From positions 1,817,223-1,881,222 of the forward strand of contig JAQGEQ010000186.1 of NCBI GenBank assembly GCA_034620365.1: a stretch of 64,000 nt of DNA. Direction: 5' to 3'. Within the stretch, counting starts at the first letter, position 1. Each line of letters starts with the position of its first letter. This document shows, piece after piece, positions 2,638-64,000 of this stretch. Source of the DNA: Pegea sp. RAD2-039 (lineage: Eukaryota > Chordata > Thaliacea > Salpida > Salpidae). The notes beneath the pieces are model-generated. The model saw only the letters and a program-made list of their open reading frames with translations, ran no database searches and had not been told where the DNA came from. A program made the translations under genes and the position numbers.

Positions 2638-4032
2638 TTTTTATTTATTTATTTCAATAATTGCGAAGGAGGGTACCTGAAACGAGATCTTGGATGCAAG
2701 CGATATTTTGTAAATTACTCAAACACCGACACCTCTATCATACAGTCTATCACAACGCAAAACACAAAAAAGATTACGGTCAACCAGAAAAGAATCAGGA
2801 TAAAACGGTTTCAACCAAGTTTCAGTAATAAAAACAAATGTGAAATCTTGGGAATGCAAAAGAGCTTTCAATTGAAAAATTTTGTTAATAATCGAACTTG
2901 CGTTGAAGAACATACCTAATGTGATAGAAGAATTGTCTTTTTGATGCTTGTGAGATTTGATGATGGGCTTCTGTAAATTGATATCTTGGATATTAACAAT
3001 TGTGTCCGGAGAGAGTTTGAAAAAAGAAGATGTGGGTCCAGTGATTATTTGCCACTTCCTTTTTTTTAAAAAGCCTTGACAACTCTCAAGGCCCATGGTG
3101 GACCTCGAACTTTGTATTTGAAATCAGTTGGTTGTTCCTTCTTATTTCGGTTATACGCCTCTTTTAGAAGACGCTTATTTTCTAAGCGATGATCTTCACA
3201 CATATCATGCGCTACTTTAATGCGCTCGAATTTTTTCTCAAGTCTTAGCTTATACAGCTTGGCAAGAAACTTGTGTTTGGTCCAATTTTCCTGAAAGGAC
3301 ACTTTCAACGGTCTTGGATGATCTGAGCTTTTTGCTCCAAGTCTAGTCATTGATACCTTTGGAACGTCCACGAAATCAAGGCTTTGAGAGCACATTTGAT
3401 TAAAAAACTTAGTGTCATCATCTTTATCAGTCTCAGAGATATTAAAGATGATGACATTGTTTTCTCTGTCCTCACGGTCTAAAGTGAGTTTTTTGTGCGT
3501 GTCGGTGACCTTCTTGGCAAGAAACTGCAGCATGTTAGCATTTTTGTCAGAACCGGGATCACCGACCACCGAGGCCCATGTGACTTGTTTCTTTGTAGAG
3601 GCATTCAGTTCGTCCATTAATTTGGACAAACTAGATACTTTCTCATCAAACTTGGCAACATCTTTGGAAATTTCCGATTTAAGGTTTACTAATTCAGTAG
3701 ATACAGATTTACTGATGTCTGATAATAGGTTTTCATCAGAATTGGTTGAGGGAGCTGTTGTGTCCATGGTTCTACATTTAATGCAAAACCATTTAAATCC
3801 CATTTGCTTCATCTCGTTTTTATCAAACATATCATAAATTTTCTTGCTCACTCACTACAGGTGAGCTAAAGCAGGAGAGACATTTAAAGCATTCAATTAC
3901 CGGATCTTCACCAGATCAAATTTTATTGCAGGATTGGCAATTGCAATCTTGCTTTGATGAAGTCGGTTTTTCAGGATTTTTCTTTACAGTAGACCGTAAG
4001 AAGGTCTTGCCACTTTTATGTGGATCCACCAT
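2638..4032 (-). mobile_element. Broken LINE (non-LTR retrotransposon): ORF1 plus start of endonuclease, then 3' tail
   Basis: Read on the minus strand, an ATG at 4032 opens an ORF1 with a Cys-rich start (CNCQSC, then CFKC, then WFCIKC) of the PHD-like type seen in CR1/L2-group ORF1 proteins. Next come a coiled Lys/Glu-rich stretch and the segment RENNVIIFNI, typical of the ORF1 RRM region. The ORF is interrupted by a TGA near 3920 and a frameshift near 3852; the longest open piece is 3066-3851. Overlapping it, 2719-3096 encodes the beginning of an apurinic-type endonuclease (NASSIINK, then FITETWL, then RCDRLYDRG). It meets a stop, and the element then runs into an AT-rich tail of TAAATA repeats at about 2640. 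No reverse transcriptase is present. It is a dead, incomplete copy; the clade assignment is tentative. Confidence 0.85.
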
Positions 4033-6025: not shown

Positions 6026-9000
6026 CTACTTCAGTCCTCGACGAGATGGTTCGGAAGCAGTAGGAGGAGGTGGAGGACCTCTTCGACTCAAATCTTGAAT
6101 GAAATTTTTAATCACTTCATCTCGTTGAGTCTTGATACACGAGAGGATCAGATATCGTTTATCATTTTCCAACAAAGATTTGATCTTTCGGAGGTGATGA
6201 GAATTAGCATCAAGCTCCGCTTGCGTCCTAAGGATCAACAACAGTTAGATGTAGCTCTCTAAGATCAAAGACATACTTATGAGTGATGAACTTGGATTCT
6301 TTCAGCAACTCTCTCAAGTCTCCTTTTGCGGTCACAAACCGACTCTTCTGATATTCCTCATACTCGTGTTCACGTTTCTACAATCAGTAATTAGTCGCAG
6401 GTTACAGGTGAGGATGTTGTGCGACTTACGCGGTCGCTAGATGAGAATTTAGCAAATCTGGGGTCATGTTTGATCAACTTCTTTGCTTCCTTCCACTTGG
6501 TGGTCAGCTTGATGCCAGCGGTTTCTTCGAGAAGCTTCTTGAAGGTCACTTTTCGTTTTTTATTCAAAGCATCGATATGAGCGGAGAAATGTCTGAAAAT
6601 AATCGGGTTGAAACAAATGGGACAGTTTGGGTGGTACTAGGACAACCTTTCCTTCTCATCTCGGGACAATAGTTTGGCCAAGTCCCACCGATTGTCCTTC
6701 TTCAGCTGTCGTTTTGTATCTGACCATGTCTGATCTGGATTCCTGACCTGAAAGGATACAGATGAGGACCAAGTTGTGGCTGGTATCTTTTTGGTTACCA
6801 TGTCAACCAGTAGCGCTTTGAAATGTTGTTCAGCTTCATCAAGTCGATGTTTGTAACGTTCAGAATCAATCTTGCGACTTCGTTCAGCTTTCTGAAGTTC
6901 CACTTCACGTTGTCGAGCTCTCAAACTCTCTTCCGTTCTTCGCTGCTTCTCCAACTCTTCACTACCGACAGCTGCCTGCTACAAGATAAAGATCAAACAA
7001 AGACACAGATGAAGATTAAACAAAGACACAGATGAAGATCAAACAAAGACACAGATGAAGATCAAACAAGGACACAGAGATGAAGATTAAACAAAGACAC
7101 AGATGAAGATCAAACAAAGACACAGATGAAGATCAAACAAAGACACAGATGAAGATTAAACAAGGACACAGATGAAGACACAGTTGAAGATTAAACAAGG
7201 ATTAGATGTAGAACTTACAGATTTAGTTTTAGAGCGGCAAAATTCATTCCACCAATTTTCTCGCTGGTATGATTCAACAGCGGAATATCGCGTATCTGAC
7301 GTCAGCTTGTCACGTGCACGTTGCCATCGCGAACATTTATCAACATGTTTCTCCTCCATCAACAAGAAAAAGTCGCGCTTGATCTGTTGATCATGTAATT
7401 ATTACGAAAATTAACTATCGACCAATCACAGACCTTCTCAGCTTTGTCACGTGATTCATCATCGCGTCTTTTTCGAGTTTCTTTGACGAATTCATTGAAA
7501 AGAGTTTCACGTTCCTTCATCTTCTCAATTGCTTTGAATCTTTTATCTTTGGAGTTTTTAGAAGCAAACTCGCTGAAGCCCATTCTGCCAAAAACACGTG
7601 ACTTGTCAGTGACGTCATCGACGCTATTTATCGCAAGCTCACTTGGCAGAGTAGTTGACTTCAGCAACAAGAGCTTTAAAGTCCTCACGACATTTGAGTA
7701 GATGAGCTTTCTTCTCTTTACGCTCTACTTCTGCTCGAGTCTTTACATACTGATCGAAGACCTTTGAAAAAGATGAAGATGAAGTCTGCATCAGTATCAA
7801 CTCCTTTTTCAACCTGTTTGCGCTCCTTTGGATTGAGCAACTTGTAGCGTTCATCGAACACAATTTTGTGCAACTCTTTCTCCCAGGTGGAAAACGCAGA
7901 AACTTTCCGTTCGAGTAACATATCTTGAAAACTAGCCATACGTGTCTCAAGTGATATTTGTGGCTTATCCTCATCTTCATCTTCTGCGGACTCTTTTACT
8001 TCCTCAGAGTCTTTTGGATCAGCTTCTTCTTTTTCATCAGTTCTGTAATTTGTAAAATGTTTTGAAGCGGTTTTCAAATTGAGGAATATTTCAATTACTT
8101 CAATTTCTTCTTTAACGGTTCTTCAGTTTCTTTTGAAGTTGTTTCATCTTCAAAACAAATTGAATAAATAATTAGGCTTCGATTTGATAGATGACAAACC
8201 TTCTTTCAATTTGCGTTTATGAGGAGGATCAGAGATCACTTTATCAACATCATTTCTCTCTTTTAACTCCTCAGGTCGTTCCCACATTGATAATGAAGTT
8301 GTTGGGTTATAAAAGAAAACTTTTCCGTCGCCTGTCCATACAACACACCTACAAAAATCAAGTTAACAAGCTGAATATCTGTTCCTGATAATTTTGCTTG
8401 TTATTTTCAAGCAAAAGAAGCTAGAAGCAGGAGAGACATTGTAAAATATTCAACAAAAAATAGATTTAAAATGAAACTGTTGAAAGTTTAAAGATTTCTT
8501 ACTATCATAATTACAATTTTCAAAGTAGTGTTGTAAATATTGACAAATAATTTGCTAAAAATTGTTGTTTAAAACATTGAACGTGGTTAGAATCAAAATG
8601 TAAAATCCAAATGAAATCCATTGATATAAGTACCCGCTCAGAAAACAACCGGTAACATAGTTTTAGAAACTATTTCATATATCATGTAGCGTCACAAGTA
8701 GTTTGGTGTTATGCAAAATACAACGTAACACTACCTGTTAGTATTGAACGAGTCAATATATAAGTGAAAACTCTCCATAAATTGGCATCATTTTATTGTT
8801 TGTTTGTCTGTCATCGTATAGAAGAGTAATGAAAGATTATACAAGTATAATTTCCTCAAGTTATTTGCAAGATTTCAAACTGTTTGTAATTAAACCAACA
8901 AACCACTATTTGTAGAAGTGTATAATAAGGTAAATAGAAATAAGATTAAAAGTTAATCAACTTAAAATAGTATTAATAATTAAAGCTGAAAAAACTTATT

Positions 9001-11292: not shown

Positions 11293-14173
11293 TATAAGAA
11301 GTATTTATGAAATAATAAACTCTTTAAATCTGAAAAATTGATTTTAAATGAAATAAAAATCAAAAAATGAATTCAATTTACAAACTTTTAATTTGCTTGC
11401 AAATAAAAATCAACTATTATTATAGAAAAAACAAAATCTCAACCACATGATATAAACTTTAAAAATGTTTTAAACTACTTATATAAACACGAATAATACT
11501 ATAATCTGGTTTTTTAATATTTTATGTAAATAAAAATCAAATCAATTGAATAACAAAATTGGATAAAATAAGTACTAAATGTATTCAAATTAGTAATAAT
11601 TTCAAATAATATAATGGCGAAATTATACCAATTAAATTTTACTAATAATGTTATTAATATTTAATAAATATTAAATAACAACTAGCAATTTAGTTTATAT
11701 AAATCAAGCTATAATACTTTAGTTTAAAAAAAAGTAAATTAACTATAAGCTTTTCAATAATTTTAAAATGAAATAACTATAAACATGCAATAAAATAAAA
11801 TAGCAATAAAATATTAATAACTAAAATAGCAATTTATGAAATTTTTACTATTATTTTATTTATTTTTACAATGAGATTAAAAAGCTTTTATTTTCATTTA
11901 TTTTTACTCAAAAACAAAAGCTCTGAAATTAAAATAATTTAACCTGCTGATAAGAAAAAATTTAAGTTTTAAAACTATTATTTAGATTAAATTTGGAAAT
12001 TCAAATGTAATTTAGTTTTACACAGAATAAGAAAAAAGAAAAAAAAAACTTTGACATAATTTAAAATAACTAACATTAAACTAAACTGGATAAAATCAAC
12101 TAAACTGGATATATATAACTATGATAAGTTGTTTTAATTAATTATACATAATATAGTGATCTATATTTAAATAAAAAATAACTTACAATTTGTATCTAAC
12201 AAAGTAGTAGTATCTAAAAATTAAACTTTATGCAGACAACCAGAGTAAATAACAAATTTTTATCACGATTAAATTGTTGATTAGTACAACTAGACGAGCT
12301 TACTGACGAATTTTCTAAAATACCAAAATGCTCAGCGGTATAAATTACGCTAAATATAATTTTTAAGTGAGCTAATTATATTAATTAAATGTGTTTACAT
12401 AAAAAGATAGATTACTATCAAGTTAACTTTTACCAAATATTAATTTCATAAGTGATGACTGTTAAATATTTAAGCAACGCTATTTACATCGATGAAATTG
12501 AACTAAAATTGAACTTTCGAGATCAAATTAGTAAGTATCTTTTGTATAAACAATTACTTGGTTTCCTAATCTACTAATTACACCACAACGTTTTTAAAAA
12601 TGTATTATAATTGGAACAGTTAGGAATCTAAGAAGGATTTTAGCATTTAAATTAAAATTATGATGACTTCTAAGACCTATGCTTTTTCAGCTAACTTTTA
12701 ATTTGGCTGATAATATAATAAAACATATAATATTTTCTATTTTTGTATCTATATTATTCTTTCCTATGTTGAGCTTGTATAAGATATTTTAGTAAAGATG
12801 ATGCAGAGAAGATTGAGATGCAGAGAACTAAGAAATTTTGTTTTGAGCTAAAAATAAAATTTAATTATCTTAAATAGTAGTACGAGGTCGAAGATATTTA
12901 AATATTTTATATAACGCACATAGAGAAGGTATTTTAAAGAGAAGAGGGCTAATAATGCTGCTTTGGGACACCTCACTAAAGACCTCCAAGAAGACTTGAA
13001 ATAGAGTTATTGATTATGACTTGTTATTGTATTATACCATTTATCTAAGAGAAGTGTAAATTTGATGTGAAAACGACAATTTTAAAATATTTTTTTCGAT
13101 ATCGAAGATATCACAATTATTTTGAACGTCTTTCAGACCCTAACACAAAAAGTCTTACCAATAAAAAGCTGAGTTCAAAAATCATGAGTATACATCGAAT
13201 GCTGAAAAATGCTTAGGTGAACGAAAAAGGTAGTTTTTTTTATACCTCAATCATTTAAAATAAAAAATACAAGTATCTGATCTTTTTTTTTACTTTAGCA
13301 CAAACAATTCAAACAAAAATCGCTTTAACGGTCATTGGTGGTTATTTTTACTTACAAACGTCAAATGGTTTTCACAAACACAATCTTTAATATAGTTAGC
13401 GGCAACAATAATAAACAAATTTAATCAATTTCATATCAAATATTTATAAAATCTTTTTAAAGTTTTTATAATGATGGTGAAATACCTGAAGTCAACAAAT
13501 TCCGTTTACTTTTGTGGCTTCATAAGGGATGTTAGAGTTGAGACATACTTCCTGATATTGATGTTATTTTGAAAGTGCGTTAATTTATTTTGATTTTTCA
13601 TTAACGTATTCTTAGCTTCTTCAGCCGATGATCTATTTTAGTCTTCGTAAATTTCTACTTGAAATTTCTCATTGTAAAGTGTACTAAAAAACTTAGCTTA
13701 GTTTGTAAATGAATTAATAAACTTATTTAACTATTTATTATATCATTTATTTTGTATGAGTCTATACGATGCTTTCAACCAGATTTTTAAGTAGAGTCTT
13801 CTAATAGAATGAAAATTCATAATTGACCGTTGGTCGAAGGCTATGCACAATTTAGTTGAGTTGAATTAAATGCTTGTTGAGACAATCTTTAACTTCAGCC
13901 AATAAAACAGCTTGATGCTAATAAATCCATTTATTGATGTAAATAATACTTTTTATATATTTTAGCATACTTCAATGTCTGAATTGTGCTTTTATAAAAA
14001 TTCTTAATCTTTCTAATCTATGTTCTCGTTATGTAATTTATTTTCAAATTAAATTACAATCCAATTTAAGTATGGCCCGCTAATATTTTTCAACTTAAAT
14101 AAATTAAAATTTTGAGTTAAAAAAAATCAGGTTAGTTAACATTACTAAGTTTCAGAAAATAAAATAAATAAAA
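11293..14173. other. AT-rich intergenic stretch upstream of TCERG1
   Basis: Probably contains the TCERG1 promoter and 5' UTR on the minus side; a less AT-rich patch at about 12230-12350 is a candidate. No coding exon, RNA gene or repeat family was recognised. Confidence 0.5.
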
Positions 14174-15106
14174 ATGAAACTAAAAATAATTCTGATTCTT
14201 CTACTTATTAGTTGCATTGCAGAAACACAAGAAATCCGTCCAAAGAAATATAAAGTAAGTTTTAAAAAGTCTGTTGTCTTTTTTTTTTGTAAAACTTTTT
14301 CTACTTTTTTGTGTTTTAACGAATATAGCTTTAACCCTTGCTTTTCACAAAAACAAACAATTTATCGGTATCTTTTGAAGGGACTTTGTAAAAGCATCTT
14401 TGGCTAAAAAATTTTTATCGTTTCTTGATTTTGTTATCTATAAATAAACAAAATTTTAATGCAGTCTTTATCATTTTCATTTGGATTGTTTTGTTCTTAG
14501 TTGTGTTTACATATCAGACTTTTTTTAGCTTCACTTGGTACTTTAGTTTAAAATTAAGTTGGCTAAATATATATTCTAAATGAAAACAGCTTTTATGATT
14601 GTTATTCGTAATATGCTTCTGCTATTTTGTAGAAAATACATTTTCAAATTATTCTTTTATTATTTTTTAGGTTTTGTTGGCAAATCATTTTGTTATCAGC
14701 AGTAACTTTTGTTTTTATAGAAAAAATATAAAAATTGTCAATTTTGAAATTTTTTGGAAAAATTATAAAATGTTCAATAGACTTAGATGATCAATTTATC
14801 AATAGATGATCTTAAAATAAATTAGTGTTAATAAATTAAAAAAAAATGGTTAATCAGCTTATTACAGCAAATAGTATTAAAATAGTACAAAAATCCTGCC
14901 TTTGCTTTAAACTATTAATAAGATGGATGTATAATATAAACTTCATGTGATTAATGTGAAGTATTAATGATGTTTTTCAGAGTAAAGTTAACTACAACAA
15001 CCTTATAAGGCTTTTATGGGAGTATCTCGAGATAAGTTTTGGACAAGCAATTGCTCATACTTTGATTAAAGATTTAGAAGCAGTTCATCACAGAAATCTT
15101 ACATGA
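14174..15106 (+). CDS. Small secreted protein, 68 residues, two exons, family unknown
   Basis: Exon 14174-14254 encodes MKLKIILILLLISCIAETQE and a few more residues ending in Pro-Lys-Lys-Tyr-Lys; GTAAGT follows. Exon 14981-15106 follows a TTTTTCAG acceptor and continues in phase 0 to TGA. The first 17 or so residues form a clear signal peptide, so the product should be secreted. The mature part has no cysteine, a dibasic Lys-Lys that could be a processing site, and a helix-like body (NNLIRLLWEYLEI). AATAAA follows 37 bases after the stop. I recognise no family. A peptide hormone, neuropeptide-like or host-defence peptide are possible, but nothing in the sequence decides between them. Consensus splice sites, phase match, signal peptide and poly(A) signal together make it a credible gene, although it is too short and split to stand out as an ORF. 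Confidence 0.7.
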
Positions 15107-56641: not shown

Positions 56642-59600
56642 ATGATATTTCGGTTATTTCTCATTTTCACCTCAATCTATCAATCATATGCTAATTCATG
56701 TATACCAATACGACATTCATCTTGTCAAGATTTAGGTTTGTTGATTTTCTTGTTCTTCCTTTTTAACGAATACATGAATTTATGAATTTTTTTATCAATA
56801 AAATAATATTATTATTTTTGATATGAAATAGATGAAATTATTCTATATGTTAAATAGGTTACAATCAAACAATTTTTCCTAACTTTTTTGGGCATCCTAA
56901 CCTCAACGAAGCAAAAGATGGTTTTCTAGGAGTGGAACATATCATAAGTGTAAAAAATTGCTTTTCTTTCACCTTCATACTAATTCATATCGAAATTTAA
57001 AAGTCTTATCTATAAAGTTTGTTTCATTTAAATTGGATGTTGTTGATTTTCTTTTCACTTACAGTTAAATTGTGCACAATATTCAAGAAGGTTTTTTTGT
57101 CATGTCTATTTTCCAATGTGTTCAGTCAAAGAATCCTACTTCCCTCCATGTAGGGAGCTTTGTGAGGAAGTAAGATCAAGCTGCATAGATCGTTTACAGA
57201 GGTACAAAAAAACTTGTTGAAACTATTTTGTTAACTTCTAGAAAATCTTTTCTCTTTTCACGTGACTATCAACAGTATGTCACGTGACACCACTTATCAT
57301 ATTTAATAAAAAAAATATTTCGTATTTCAGTTTCAGCTCTAATTGGCCTGACTCTTTACGTTGTGATCAGTTCCCTCTGACAACTGCTGATGAAGAGCCG
57401 TTATGTTTTGGACCACCTGTAGAGAAGAAATGTAGTGACAACTCACACTTTACATGTCCTGCAACGATGAAAGTCCCCGACCAATATAAAAATCGTAAAT
57501 CTTTTCTACAAGTTCATTTCATGTTAAATATTCAAATGATATTTCAGATTATGTTTTTATGGGAGAAGGAAATTGTGCTGCCCCGTGTGATAAGAATACT
57601 TTTTTGTTTTGGAGCGAGTAAGTTAAAAACCTTTATTTCTATTTCTTTATTTTTTTTATTTATTTTTTTTATTTATTTTTTTTTTCTTTATTTTTTTATT
57701 TGGTTTTTAGTGATCAGCGCAAAACAGCGAGTATCTGGATTGGTTGTTTGTCCTTCTTATGTGCTATTTCCACTCTCTTCACAGTCTTCACTTATTTTAT
57801 AGACATGAAACGTTTTCATTACCCAGAACGACCAATTGTCTTTCTGTCAGGTTTTTCTTTTTTTTCTTTTACATCAGATTTCGAATCAATTCCACATTTT
57901 TCAATTCTCCTCGCAGCTGTCAGCGTTTTTATTTTCAAAACAAAATCATTAATTTTTTGTGCATTTGAAATAAACTTTTTGGTTTTAACAAGAAGTAATT
58001 CGCGATGTTAATGAAGATGTCATAATTTCATATTTTCAGTTTGTTACCTTGGAGTATCAGTCGCTTACATCTGTGGTTTTTTTCTCTCTGATTCTGTAGC
58101 ATGCCAACAATTTCATACTGAGTACTGTACAACCGCTCAACCTCTACAACTCTGTCCAAAGGTTTGAAACAATTAACTACAAATTGATTTCTTTTATGTT
58201 ATAATACTTTCAAAGGTTGTGACTCAAGGGGCAAGAGAGGCAGGATGTACCATCTTGTTTATGTTGATTTACTTTTTCAGTATGGCTGGCTCTATTTGGT
58301 GAGTTTCAAAAAGTTCGATTTTTTTTTATTAATTATTTAAAAGTTGTTTCAAGAAACTTTTCTTTTTTTGATGTTTTAATCATAAATATTTTGATTTAAA
58401 TAATTAAAATGTAAGACTTTAATTCAGATACATTTTATTAATAAATTCTTAACAGATGTTCACTTTCTTACATTTAAAAAAAAATCTTTCTGGTGATTAA
58501 GGATTCTTTAGATTTTTACATCTGTTCAAATTCAATTTTTCTACTTTTCAAAAGTTTTTTTTTTTGAAGATCAGCTTTGCAGCTTATTTCTTTCAAAATT
58601 TTCAACAATTTTTAATTTGATAATTTTCAAAATATTTAAAAAAGTTTCTTTCCATTTTTACTTTTAAAACTTCAAATAATTATCTTGCAACATCCATTAG
58701 TCTGATCCTTTGATCTTTCAAATGACACCATCGATAAAATATTTTCTTTATTATGGCCAATTGAATATTCTTTTATTTAAATATTTCTTTTATAAATCTA
58801 ATTGTTACTTTCTATTTTCACTTGTGCTTAAAAAGCTTTTACATTTCTCTTTGTGTTGGATTAGCAACAATAAAATAAAAAAAGTCTTTTTATATTGTCT
58901 GCCATCCTTATATCTTCACTGTATCTTATTATATATTTATTTGTATATATTTATATTCTATGTCAACTTCTTTTTAGGTGGATCGTTCTTTCATTTACCT
59001 GGTTTCTAGCTGCTGGTTTGAAATGGGGTCATGAAGCAATTGAAAAGAAAAGTTCATATTTTCATGGCGTGGCTTGGAGCTTACCAGCTATTCAAACTAT
59101 AATTGTTCTAATTACATCAAAAATTGAGGGTGATGTCTTGAGCGGAGTGAGTTGTTTGTCTATTTGTTTGTCAAATATCTAATTTGTAATAAAATATTTC
59201 TGTCAAAGGTTTGTTTTGTGGGAGTTTATAACACTACTGATCTACTCAACTTTCTACTTGTCCCTTTATCTATTTATCTTTTAATTGGAACAATTTTTTT
59301 AATAGCTGGTTTCTATGCGATGTACACTATTAGGTGACTTTGATTTAAATGAACAAAAACTTCACAATAATCCACTTTAATCAACTATTTGTTATTTTCA
59401 ACCAGGAATCAAGTTCGTAATGATGCTGGAACTCATAAGGTGCAAAAACTTGAACGTTTAATGGTTAAAATCGGAGTTTTTAGTGTTCTCTACACTGTCC
59501 CAGCTACTGTCATGGTTGCTTGTTACTTCTACGAACTTTTTAATCGCGAATCGTGGCAGAGAGGTTGGCTCTACAACAACTGCAAGTAAGTTTACATCCT

Positions 59601-60031
59601 TCTCATCTATTCCATCACTATCTATTTCAACCACAGATATCATTCAATTCCTTGTCCTTGTAGTCACCAGATAGATGGTGGTAACCATCCAAACTTTATT
59701 GTGTTTGTTCTCAAGTATTCAACAATGTTGATAGTTGGTTAGTTAATCTCACTAATGATGGCTCACTTATCATCAATCTTTTCTAGGTATTACATCTGGC
59801 TTTTGGATTTGGTCAGCCAAAACTGTTGAATCATGGACTAATTTTAAAAACCATTTGTTCTGTACAACCCACAGGTCACGTGATCATACTAATGTCGGTG
59901 CTCATTACCATCGAGCGACTCCTAGCGGATCTGACAGCTCACGTCAAGCTGCTGCTGCTGCTGGAATGTTGGGATATGAAGGACATCAACAGATGCCTCT
60001 GTATATCTCCACTTCCGGTCGAGGCCTTTAA
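56642..60031 (+). CDS. fzd: Frizzled Wnt receptor
   Basis: A seven-pass membrane receptor for Wnt ligands acting through Dishevelled. Thirteen exons join to 573 residues: 56642-56735, 56858-56949, 57065-57201, 57331-57494, 57548-57617, 57711-57850, 58040-58161, 58216-58298, 58978-59146, 59209-59333, 59406-59585, 59637-59737, 59787-60031. A signal peptide (residues 1-18) precedes the cysteine-rich Wnt-binding domain ([13 protein letters not shown], then [10 protein letters not shown], then [14 protein letters not shown], then [11 protein letters not shown]). Seven helices follow, with [32 protein letters not shown] and [20 protein letters not shown]. The cytoplasmic Dishevelled-binding motif KTVESW (KTxxxW) lies after the seventh helix. 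The tail is short, with an Ala run and no PDZ-type ending. The [10 protein letters not shown] region and WSAKT resemble FZD4, while VESW resembles FZD5/8, so I leave the subfamily open. CACGTGAC words occur in the intron at about 57260 and in the last exon. Confidence 0.97.
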
Positions 60032-61696: not shown

Positions 61697-61834
61697 GGAA
61701 TTCCCACCTTCATTAGGAGTTTCTTATCAACCCACTAACATGTGTGGGAGTTAATCAAAAACAGGAAAAGTAAGAGAATAAAAGGGCACCTCCAACAAGC
61801 TGTTACAACTACAGTGATAAGTGAAGAGGTCAAG
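61697..61834 (+). promoter_or_regulatory. Core promoter of the Arg-rich secreted repeat gene: TATA-like box and kappaB-like site
   Basis: AATAAAAGG at 61777-61785 sits 50 bases before the ATG, the spacing of a TATA box with a short 5' UTR of about 25 bases. GGAATTCCC at 61697-61705, about 72 bases further upstream, matches nine of ten positions of the palindromic kappaB/Rel site. GTGATAAG at 61815-61822 is GATA-like. These are motif matches only; binding is unproven, and GATA-like words are common in AT-rich DNA. Confidence 0.45.
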
Positions 61835-64000
61835 ATGAGACGACTCATCTTTTTGACTATTGTAGTTTTAGCAGCAACTGTATCAACAGAAGAAGCTTCA
61901 AACGATAACTTACAGTAAGTGGTAGTTTTCTTTTATAAGTCAACTTTATTTTTAGGAGAAATAAATATAGGAATAGATTATTGATAAAGCTATATTTCTA
62001 AAGTATGATCTATATATAAAATAAAATATATATAATTAAAGATAACTAGTATTATTTATCAATTAGAAAAATCAAATAATTTCCACAAAAAGTAATATTG
62101 TTAATCAAAAGTTTATTGTATATTTATAGAAAAGACATCGAAGTATTTCATCCTGATGATCAAAAAACGGGTAAGCAACCTAACAAAGTATTAGAAAACA
62201 AGAACAAAAAACACAACACTATGTAAAAAAAACACTTTATCAACAAAATTAATAAAAAAATACCCCAAGATTAATTGCTCAAATGTTATTGCAGAAAGAG
62301 ATTCAATAAAAGGCGGTGCAAAAGGAATCTTCACCCAACAACAAACTCAAACAATCAGATGGAATAAACCTATCAAACAAAATCACCGAAGAAAAGTAAA
62401 AACTACAATTAAACAAGAAAGCCAAAAGCGCATCAGACGTGCCGTCCGAGTCAGAAGAATCAGACGTGGTATCCGATTCAGAAGAATCAGACGTCGTTTC
62501 CGAGTTAGAAGAATCAGACGTCGTTTCCGAGTTAGAAGAATCAGACGTGGTATCCGATTCAGAAGAATCAGACGTGGTTGCATTGTGAGAAGAATCAGAC
62601 GTGGTATCCGATTCAGAAGAATCAGACGTCACATCCGATTCAGAAGAATCAGACGTCGTATCCGATTCAGAAGAATCAGACGTGTTATCCAATTCAGAAG
62701 AATCAGACGTCGTATCCGATTCAGAAGAATCAGACGTGTTATCCAATTCAGAAGAATCAGACGTCGTATCCGATTCAGAAGAATCAGACGTGTTATCCAA
62801 TTCAGAAGAATCAGACGTCGTATCCGAGTTAGACGAATCAGACGTGGTATCCGATTCAGAAGAATCAGACGTGGTTGCATTGTGAGAAGAATCAGACGTG
62901 GTATCCGATTCAGAAGAATCAGACGTGTTATCCGATTCAGAAGAATCAGACGTCGTATCCGATTCAGAAGAATCAGACGTGTTATCCAATTCAGAAGAAT
63001 CAGACGTCGTATCCGATTCAGAAGAATCAGACGTGGTTGCATTGTGAGAAGAATCAGACGTGGTATCCGATTCAGAAGAATCAGACGTGTTATCCAATTC
63101 AGAAGAATCAGACGTCGTATCCGATTCAGAAGAATCAGACGTGTTATCCAATTCAGAAGAATCAGACGTCGTATCCGATTCAGAAGAATCAGACGTGTTA
63201 TCCAATTCAGAAGAATCAGACGTCGTATCCGAGTTAGACGAATCAGACGTGGTATCCGATTCAGAAGAATCAGACGTGGTTGCATTGTGAGAAGAATCAG
63301 ACGTGGTATCCGATTCAGAAGAATCAGACGTCGTATCCGATTCAGAAGAATCAGACGTGTTATCCGATTCAGAAGAATCAGACGTGGTTGCATTGTGAGA
63401 AGAATCAGACGTGGTATCCGATTCAGAAGAATCAGACGTGTTATCCAATTCAGAAGAATCAGACGTCGTATCCGATTCAGAAGAATCAGACGTGTTATCC
63501 AATTCAGAAGAATCAGACGTCGTATCCGATTCAGAAGAACCAGACGTGTTATCCAATTCAGAAGAATCAGACGTCGTATCCGAGTTAGACGAATCAGACG
63601 TGGTATCCGATTCAGAAGAATCAGACGTGGTTGCATTGTGAGAAGAATAAGACGTGGTATCCGATTCAGAAGAATCAGACGTGTTATCCGATTCAGAAGA
63701 ATCAGACGTCGTATCCGATTCAGAAGAATCAGACGTGTTATCCGATTCAGAAGAATCAGACGTGGTTGCATTGTGAGAAGAATCAGACGTGGTATCCGAT
63801 TCAGAAGAATCAGACGTGGTATCCGATTCAGAAGAATCAGACGTCGTTTCCGAGTTAGAAGAATCAGACGTGGTATCCGATTCAGAAGAATCAGACGTGG
63901 TTGCATTGTGAGAAGAATCAGACGTGGTATCCGATTCAGAAGAATCAGACGTGTTATCCGATTCAGAAGAATCAGACGTCGTATCCGATTCAGAAGAATC
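61835..64000 (+). CDS. Secreted arginine-rich nonapeptide-repeat protein (partial, runs off the window end)
   Basis: Exons 61835-61914, 62130-62170 and 62295-64000 join with GT-AG introns (GTAAGT and GTAAGC donors) in matching phases. The first exon encodes a signal peptide (MRRLIFLTIVVLAATVSTEE). About 50 unique Gln/Lys-rich residues follow, then a dibasic KR and a tandem array of the unit R-R-I-R-R-x-I-R-F. At least 609 residues fall in the window without a stop. The product would be extremely basic, with hydrophobic residues at fixed places 3, 7 and 9 of each unit. Eight units carry a cysteine (x-I-R-F replaced by G-C-I-V). Variants keep residue class: Ile/Phe/Cys/Val at position 7, Phe/Val at 9, AGA to CGA and ATC to ATA silent changes, and a first unit recoded as K-R-I-R-R-A-V-R-V. 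Stops break the other two plus-strand frames. The antisense frame in the same register is also open but has no gene structure. Family unknown; an antimicrobial or structural extracellular protein is possible. Confidence 0.72.
62426..64000 (+). repeat. 27-bp coding tandem array, over 57 copies, with higher-order structure
   Basis: From 62453 to the window end is 1,548 bases, 57.3 units of exactly 27 bases with no indel; a diverged unit precedes it from 62426. Units differ almost only in codons 6 to 9. Blocks begin with the cysteine unit (codons GGT TGC ATT GTG), spaced 11, 6, 9, 4, 9, 5 and 5 units apart. Two of the nine-unit blocks (units 22-30 and 35-43) are nearly identical, showing recent block duplication. 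Confidence 0.97.

Follow-up and report, generated by a model that had tools for sequence, protein, structure and literature searches.

Organization of the locus

The window analyzed here is a stretch of 64,000 nucleotides of the Pegea sp. RAD2-039 genome. Frizzled receptor exons lie on its plus strand at positions 57622-60031, upstream of the repeat gene described below, and sequences for a GH47 mannosidase, a protein with FF and WW domains, an amidohydrolase and a cytochrome c are also found in the window. The gene with FF and WW domains, in which the FF domain was matched, is presumably TCERG1-like. The following features were recognized downstream of the Frizzled exons:

61777..61784, plus strand: TATA-like box AATAAAAG, read from the sequence
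34 nt downstream of the TATA-like box (start to start), plus strand: ACAGT initiator-like motif, read from the sequence
61835..61914, plus strand: exon 1 (80 nt) with the ATG, the signal peptide MRRLIFLTIVVLAATVST and the beginning of an acidic piece (splice model, donor score)
61915..62129, plus strand: intron 1, 215 nt, phase 2, GT-AG (in-frame exon join)
62130..62170, plus strand: exon 2 (41 nt), acidic piece KDIEVFHPDDQKT (in-frame exon join, donor score)
62171..62294, plus strand: intron 2, 124 nt, phase 1, GT-AG (in-frame exon join)
62295..62425, plus strand: unique part of exon 3, in which the acidic piece ends and a basic linker follows (translation, coding score, charge)
62426..64000, plus strand: array of 27-nt units coding for RRIRR-x-I-R-F nonapeptides, up to the contig end (TRF, translation, unit count)
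62303..64000, minus strand: rival antisense open frame of ESDTTSDSS repeats with a tail of about 40 codons and a stop at 62303 (ORF, coding scores)

The TATA-like box and the initiator-like motif are putative core-promoter elements. The three exons (61835-61914, 62130-62170 and 62295 onward) are joined in frame across GT-AG introns, exactly as given in the preliminary description of this DNA, and the protein predicted from the ATG at 61835 begins with MRRLIFLTIVVLAATVST followed by EEASND. When GT dinucleotides were ranked with consensus weights, the donors of exons 1 and 2 were the two best in 61835-62430: that of exon 1 (ACA/GTAAGT) was second best in this interval and ranked 86th among the 3076 plus-strand GTs of the window, and that of exon 2 (CGG/GTAAGC) ranked 6th. 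The signal peptide, which had also been claimed, was called with a crude home-made rule and is supported by this rule together with the splice-model search presented below. Ahead of the array, exon 3 contributes 43 whole codons, mostly basic.

The array consists of 58 units plus 9 nt, among which 12 distinct unit sequences occur and the 27-nt register is never broken (TRF score of 2296, period 27, 58.1 copies). The first unit is degenerate (KRIRRAVRV), and the other 57 carry RRIRR (RRTRR in one of them) followed by a variable four-residue end. These regular units are RRIRRGIRF (15), RRIRRRIRF (12), RRIRRVIQF (9), RRIRRGCIV (8) and five other types (13). More than 57 nonapeptide repeats had first been reported, an observation that is confirmed, and the third exon is indeed open through the whole array, with the RRIRR frame unbroken to the contig end. 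The array terminates with the contig itself (C8, 1,881,222 bases), and not merely with the window, which places the C-terminus and the stop codon outside the visible sequence. A product more than half arginine had been announced, and this holds for the array (55.4% Arg) but not for the whole visible protein (48.8%). The sole Lys of the array sits in the first unit, past which there are 291 Arg and no Lys, Asp or Glu. Blocks of units have been copied, the longest comprising nine units (from the 10th and 25th units), and these duplicated blocks mark recent array growth. When the consensus unit is divided into three 9-nt pieces, 12 identities are seen among them, more than in shuffles (P 0.017), which hints weakly at an older repeat of 9 nt.

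Strand and reading frame of the array

Three frames are open for at least 180 codons, namely the plus-strand RRIRR frame (602 aa) and the minus-strand ESDTTSDSS (565 aa) and NRIPRLILL (456 aa) frames. As all three run through all or nearly all of the array, openness by itself says little about which is used. The RRIRR frame meets no stop between 62195 and the contig end, and the plus frames +1 and +2 contain 9 and 6 stops, respectively, inside the array.

Gene models with a signal peptide and at most two introns were searched for in the 926 nt upstream of the array, with strict or loose donors. Strict donors gave one model that reached the array and loose donors gave three; every one of them enters it in the RRIRR frame, and the two remaining plus frames are reached by none. 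Dinucleotide shuffles of the same 926 nt gave no model in 20,000 trials with strict donors and none in 3,000 with loose donors. In a control made of real sequence, 2,420 overlapping 926-nt stretches from the rest of the window, on both strands and in three frames, models were found in 14 of 7,260 stretch-frame tests (about 0.2%). The six control examples that were inspected come from two places, one of which is the start of the GH47 gene, indicating that genuine secretory exons make up part of what this control finds.

Coding scores were derived from a codon model of 1,121 codons in 13 stretches, of which seven had a Pfam match and six were picked by eye (two of the latter lacking a Pfam match); these reference exons, like the donor weights and the signal-peptide rule, were hand-chosen with the real sequence in view. 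The codon-plus-residue score of the unique coding sequence was 18.9 nats for the plus-strand reading and at most 5.9 for the other five frames, each of which contains between 4 and 8 stops. For exon 3 ahead of the array the score was +9.3, versus -0.8 for the antisense tail in the ESDTTSDSS frame. The synonymous score did not favor the plus reading in the unique coding sequence (0.4, versus 4.7 for the best other frame, one with 8 stops). Within the array, where units are not independent, it was +38 for the plus frame, -76 for the ESDTTSDSS frame and +65 for the minus-strand NRIPRLILL frame. The codon-plus-residue score of the array was higher for the ESDTTSDSS frame (93) than for the plus frame (20), as expected where one of the readings is half arginine.

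Variation among the units was less informative than had been supposed. Silent changes and class-conserving variation had been put forward in favor of the plus frame, but the array substitutions failed to discriminate between the strands: A4C leaves both readings unchanged, C9A leaves only the plus reading unchanged, and G16C, the commonest change (found in 19 of 58 units), replaces Gly by Arg on plus while remaining silent on minus. As the units are copies of each other, these represent few independent changes. The recoding of the first unit, also cited for the plus frame, is weak evidence (P 0.056 for conservative recoding on plus and 0.106 on minus). The case for the plus-strand RRIRR frame rests mainly on the upstream structure, and the splice-model search, the exon joins and the donor ranks all support the strand originally proposed. 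We consider it likely that a plus-strand secreted product includes the array.

The predicted protein

In the predicted protein, the signal peptide is followed by an acidic piece (net charge -6), a basic linker (+10) and the visible array (+291). As in a multipeptide antimicrobial precursor, a signal peptide (by the crude rule) thus precedes a pro-piece, here residues 19-45 with their net charge of -6. The furin consensus is R-x-R-R, which R-I-R-R fits. This motif occurs 57 times in the array, once in the degenerate first unit and in 56 of the 57 regular ones, and as a predicted site it bounds nearly every repeated unit with a convertase-type basic sequence. Predicted cuts at R-I-R-R yield mainly GIRFRRIRR (15), RIRFRRIRR (10), VIQFRRIRR (9) and GCIVRRIRR (8), the first of these nonapeptides having a net charge of +5.

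The regularly placed hydrophobic residues that had suggested an amphipathic order are not clearly beyond chance. The helix moment of a single unit is high, yet it is reached by 7% of shuffled units and cancels over 18 residues; the moment at 120 degrees, corresponding to a threefold order, gives P 0.14 when compared with every permutation of the unit. AF2, run on 171 residues without relatives, predicted no secondary structure (mean pLDDT 38.9), a result that a disordered chain would be expected to give but that is uninformative by itself.

Searches for relatives

No protein homologue was detected at E 0.001 among about 5.8 billion proteins, either with residues 1-255 of the spliced protein, for which 7,992 candidates were scored, or with residues 20-110 of the exon-3 frame (416 candidates), in searches that need shared five-residue words and a similar length and whose low-complexity scoring may hide relatives. 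The single PDB match (E 0.46) was judged to be due to chance. In Pfam, nothing exceeded the curated cut-offs, the best E-values being 0.21 for the spliced N-terminus, 0.064 for the exon-3 frame and 0.85 for the minus frame. A Conotoxin match on the N-terminus (13.0 bits, cut-off 25.1) was likewise judged to be chance. Among the matches listed in the literature search, no protein resembled the RRIRR repeat gene. The earlier remark that no family with this repeat was known is supported within the searches run (about 5.8 billion proteins, PDB and Pfam).

The genome was also searched. The DNA from the promoter to the linker matched only itself, without a paralogue; the N-terminal protein matched three places, every one at this locus; the 29 matches of the unit pattern all fell inside this array; and the matches of the array DNA, at least eight, were all at this array. 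With the array protein (E up to 10), 22 matches were obtained, of which 10 belonged to this array (five plus, five minus) and 12 lay elsewhere, with 9-20% identity; those inspected are other arrays with a nine-residue period. Four units from these arrays were no closer to the RRIRR unit than shuffles (P 0.14 to 0.73), and the arrays were not retained as relatives.

Comparison with known systems

The designed LF11 lactoferricin antibacterial peptide FWQRRIRRWRR is described, in excerpts of two articles, as having an RRIRR core (PMC6347193, PMC9816411). It resembles the array unit in this core, in its aromatic and aliphatic flanks and in its high charge; as far as these excerpts go, it differs in being designed, in containing Trp, in being amidated (PMC6347193) and in not coming from a natural repeat. 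Against the host-defence reading, the peptide alone is listed as weak, with an MIC above 20 (PMC9816411). The G2 peptide MPRRRRIRRRQK, which according to the excerpt binds 3-O-sulphated heparan sulphate, has an RRRRIRRR core like the array and, unlike the array product, is a phage-display peptide rather than a protein (PMC6272628). These two peptides show that RRIRR chemistry can work, without implying that it is used by this gene.

The architecture can be compared with that of the multipeptide precursors of bees and ants (Hymenoptera), apidaecin and Camponotus hymenoptaecin, which the available part of one article describes as having a signal and a pro-sequence, direct repeats and RR or RxxR processing sites, the repeated units being thought to multiply the response (PMC3415428). 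The array gene shares with them, so far as that text describes them, the signal, the pro-piece and the direct repeats with basic sites, and differs in its nine-residue units, in having no proline-rich peptide and in its number of units (at least 57, compared with six hymenoptaecin domains). No EAEP-type spacer separates the units, and the visible array lacks both Glu and Pro.

Arminins have an Arg-rich cationic end, and we know of no tandem array in them. An excerpt of PMC10945409 describes the majority of Hydra AMPs as precursors that carry a signal peptide and in which positive and negative residues are split with a strong bias, a layout shared by the array gene. The likeness to arminins is by description only, and nine arminin paralogues are given there for H. 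vulgaris AEP, whereas none was found for the array gene. A FMRFamide-like neuropeptide precursor, considered since IRF precedes RR, was rejected: F is followed by R in the array, and Gly for amidation is absent.

A candidate precursor of secreted cationic peptides and its alternatives

That the locus holds a real, odd, orphan gene candidate with a plus-strand secreted open frame is well supported. The product is probably a multi-unit cationic peptide precursor, by a mechanism that we infer as follows. Once the signal is removed, the acidic piece and the basic linker would remain, followed by a disordered chain of Arg, Ile and Phe. This chain may then be cut at R-I-R-R by proprotein convertases, which would free cationic nonapeptides such as GIRFRRIRR or, alternatively, the uncut chain could act on microbial surfaces with their negative charge. 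A gain of units by duplication would increase the amount of peptide made from each transcript, in the manner of multipeptide antimicrobial precursors. A host-defence or polyanion-binding role, already proposed in the preliminary description, is plausible; it gains from two features not mentioned there, the acidic-then-basic order of the pieces and the R-I-R-R sites. We tentatively favor a lineage-restricted, three-exon, plus-strand gene for a secreted host-defence polycation, while regarding this reading, with its whole mechanism included, as rather less than probable. Its most specific form, a pre-pro-polyprotein of tens of near-identical nonapeptides (GIRFRRIRR, RIRFRRIRR, VIQFRRIRR, GCIVRRIRR) cut at R-I-R-R, antimicrobial and grown as a minisatellite in one animal lineage, is doubtful. 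Against the favored reading, the -6 of the acidic piece is insufficient to neutralize the +291 of the array, spacers of the apidaecin or hymenoptaecin type are absent, and the searches run yielded neither a homologue nor a paralogue.

The main and strong rival is passive, mutational expansion, in which the secreted gene on the plus strand is retained and the array is mainly a 27-nt minisatellite grown in a tolerant disordered region, the exact unit having no function. It is possible, if somewhat unlikely. The higher-order duplicated blocks of up to nine units are in line with it, as are the failure of the searches run to find a paralogue or homologue and the presence of other 27-nt arrays on contigs C8, C74, C115 and C230, a sample biased to period 27 by the nine-residue-period query from which it came; the C115 array lies about 120 nt past a frame matching neurobeachin DUF4704 (1.5e-30). 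However, past its first unit the array contains neither Lys nor Asp/Glu beside 291 Arg, in an AT-rich window and although AGA to AAA is a single transition. Homogenization after recent growth could produce the same composition.

The remaining alternatives concern the use of the chain or the strand. An uncut Arg-rich chain could serve as a structural or adhesive secretion, condensing with sulphated or phosphorylated partners in mucus, glue, an egg coat or silk; the visible array's net charge of +291 and lack of acid residues, the predicted disorder (of little weight by itself) and the heparan sulphate binding of MPRRRRIRRRQK described in the excerpt of PMC6272628 agree with this, but survival of the chain through the secretory pathway with 57 R-I-R-R sites is doubtful, and we regard this role as improbable. 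Ser/Asp repeats are common in nature, and an antisense gene starting beyond the contig end could encode a Ser/Thr/Asp-rich, mucin- or phosphoprotein-like ESDTTSDSS repeat with NAT and NTS sequons. Its 565 open codons across the array and the tail, the silence of G16C on minus and its higher codon-plus-residue score in the array are set against the need for TCG (1% of Ser) and ACG (6% of Thr) in each consensus unit, reflected in its negative synonymous score, and the poor score of its tail; moreover, the signal peptide and both introns on the plus strand would then be accidental, a coincidence that is rare by the shuffles and the real-sequence control. This antisense product seems very unlikely. 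Least credible of all is an untranslated array, lying in an intron or in an untranslated part after a short secreted peptide: a GT at 62396 does precede the array and the C-terminus lies beyond the contig end, but this donor scores -2.76 (rank 715 of 3076), and the plus frame stays open across it from 62195.

If expressed, the favored secreted precursor would be an animal protein of extreme arginine content, without a relative in the collections searched, in which minisatellite growth within a coding exon produced a multi-dose cationic peptide precursor. Defined peptides follow from it that are open to membrane, heparin and nucleic-acid binding assays, and it raises the question of how more than 290 arginines pass through the secretory pathway and past the cell's own convertases.

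Other tandem arrays and features

The C115 array (L056:1169-2233) has 39 copies of 27 nt shortly past the neurobeachin DUF4704 frame, and by eye another frame passes from neurobeachin-like sequence into DDVTESEKV repeats; its sequence suggests a coding minisatellite within a conserved gene. On C8, MMQQPQGTV-like repeats are found at about 808 kb (L046:1399-2519, 41.5 copies of 27 nt) and about 790 kb (L054), open for 396 and 191 aa, respectively. The C230 array (L055:638-3196) contains 95 copies of a 27-nt unit up to the contig end, with several open frames, e.g., FDTNELMKL. In the genome, TTAGGG arrays gave 77 overlapping matches on three contigs; most arthropods have TTAGG and nematodes TTAGGC instead. 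A search for COX1 gave no match.

For the cytochrome c of the window, a 99% identical unnamed protein occurs in jgi and ena sources, whereas the other 119 matches listed have 76% identity or less. Within the window, a 23-nt tandem array of 8.4 copies (6984-7178) lies between open frames of the TCERG1-like gene on the minus strand. A 261-aa minus-strand frame (3066-3851), without a Pfam match, is reminiscent of a LINE retrotransposon's first frame. On the plus strand, an ATG within 13801-14326 opens a frame with the signal-peptide-like start MKLKIILILLLISCIAETQEIRPKK, which is perhaps that of another secreted gene.
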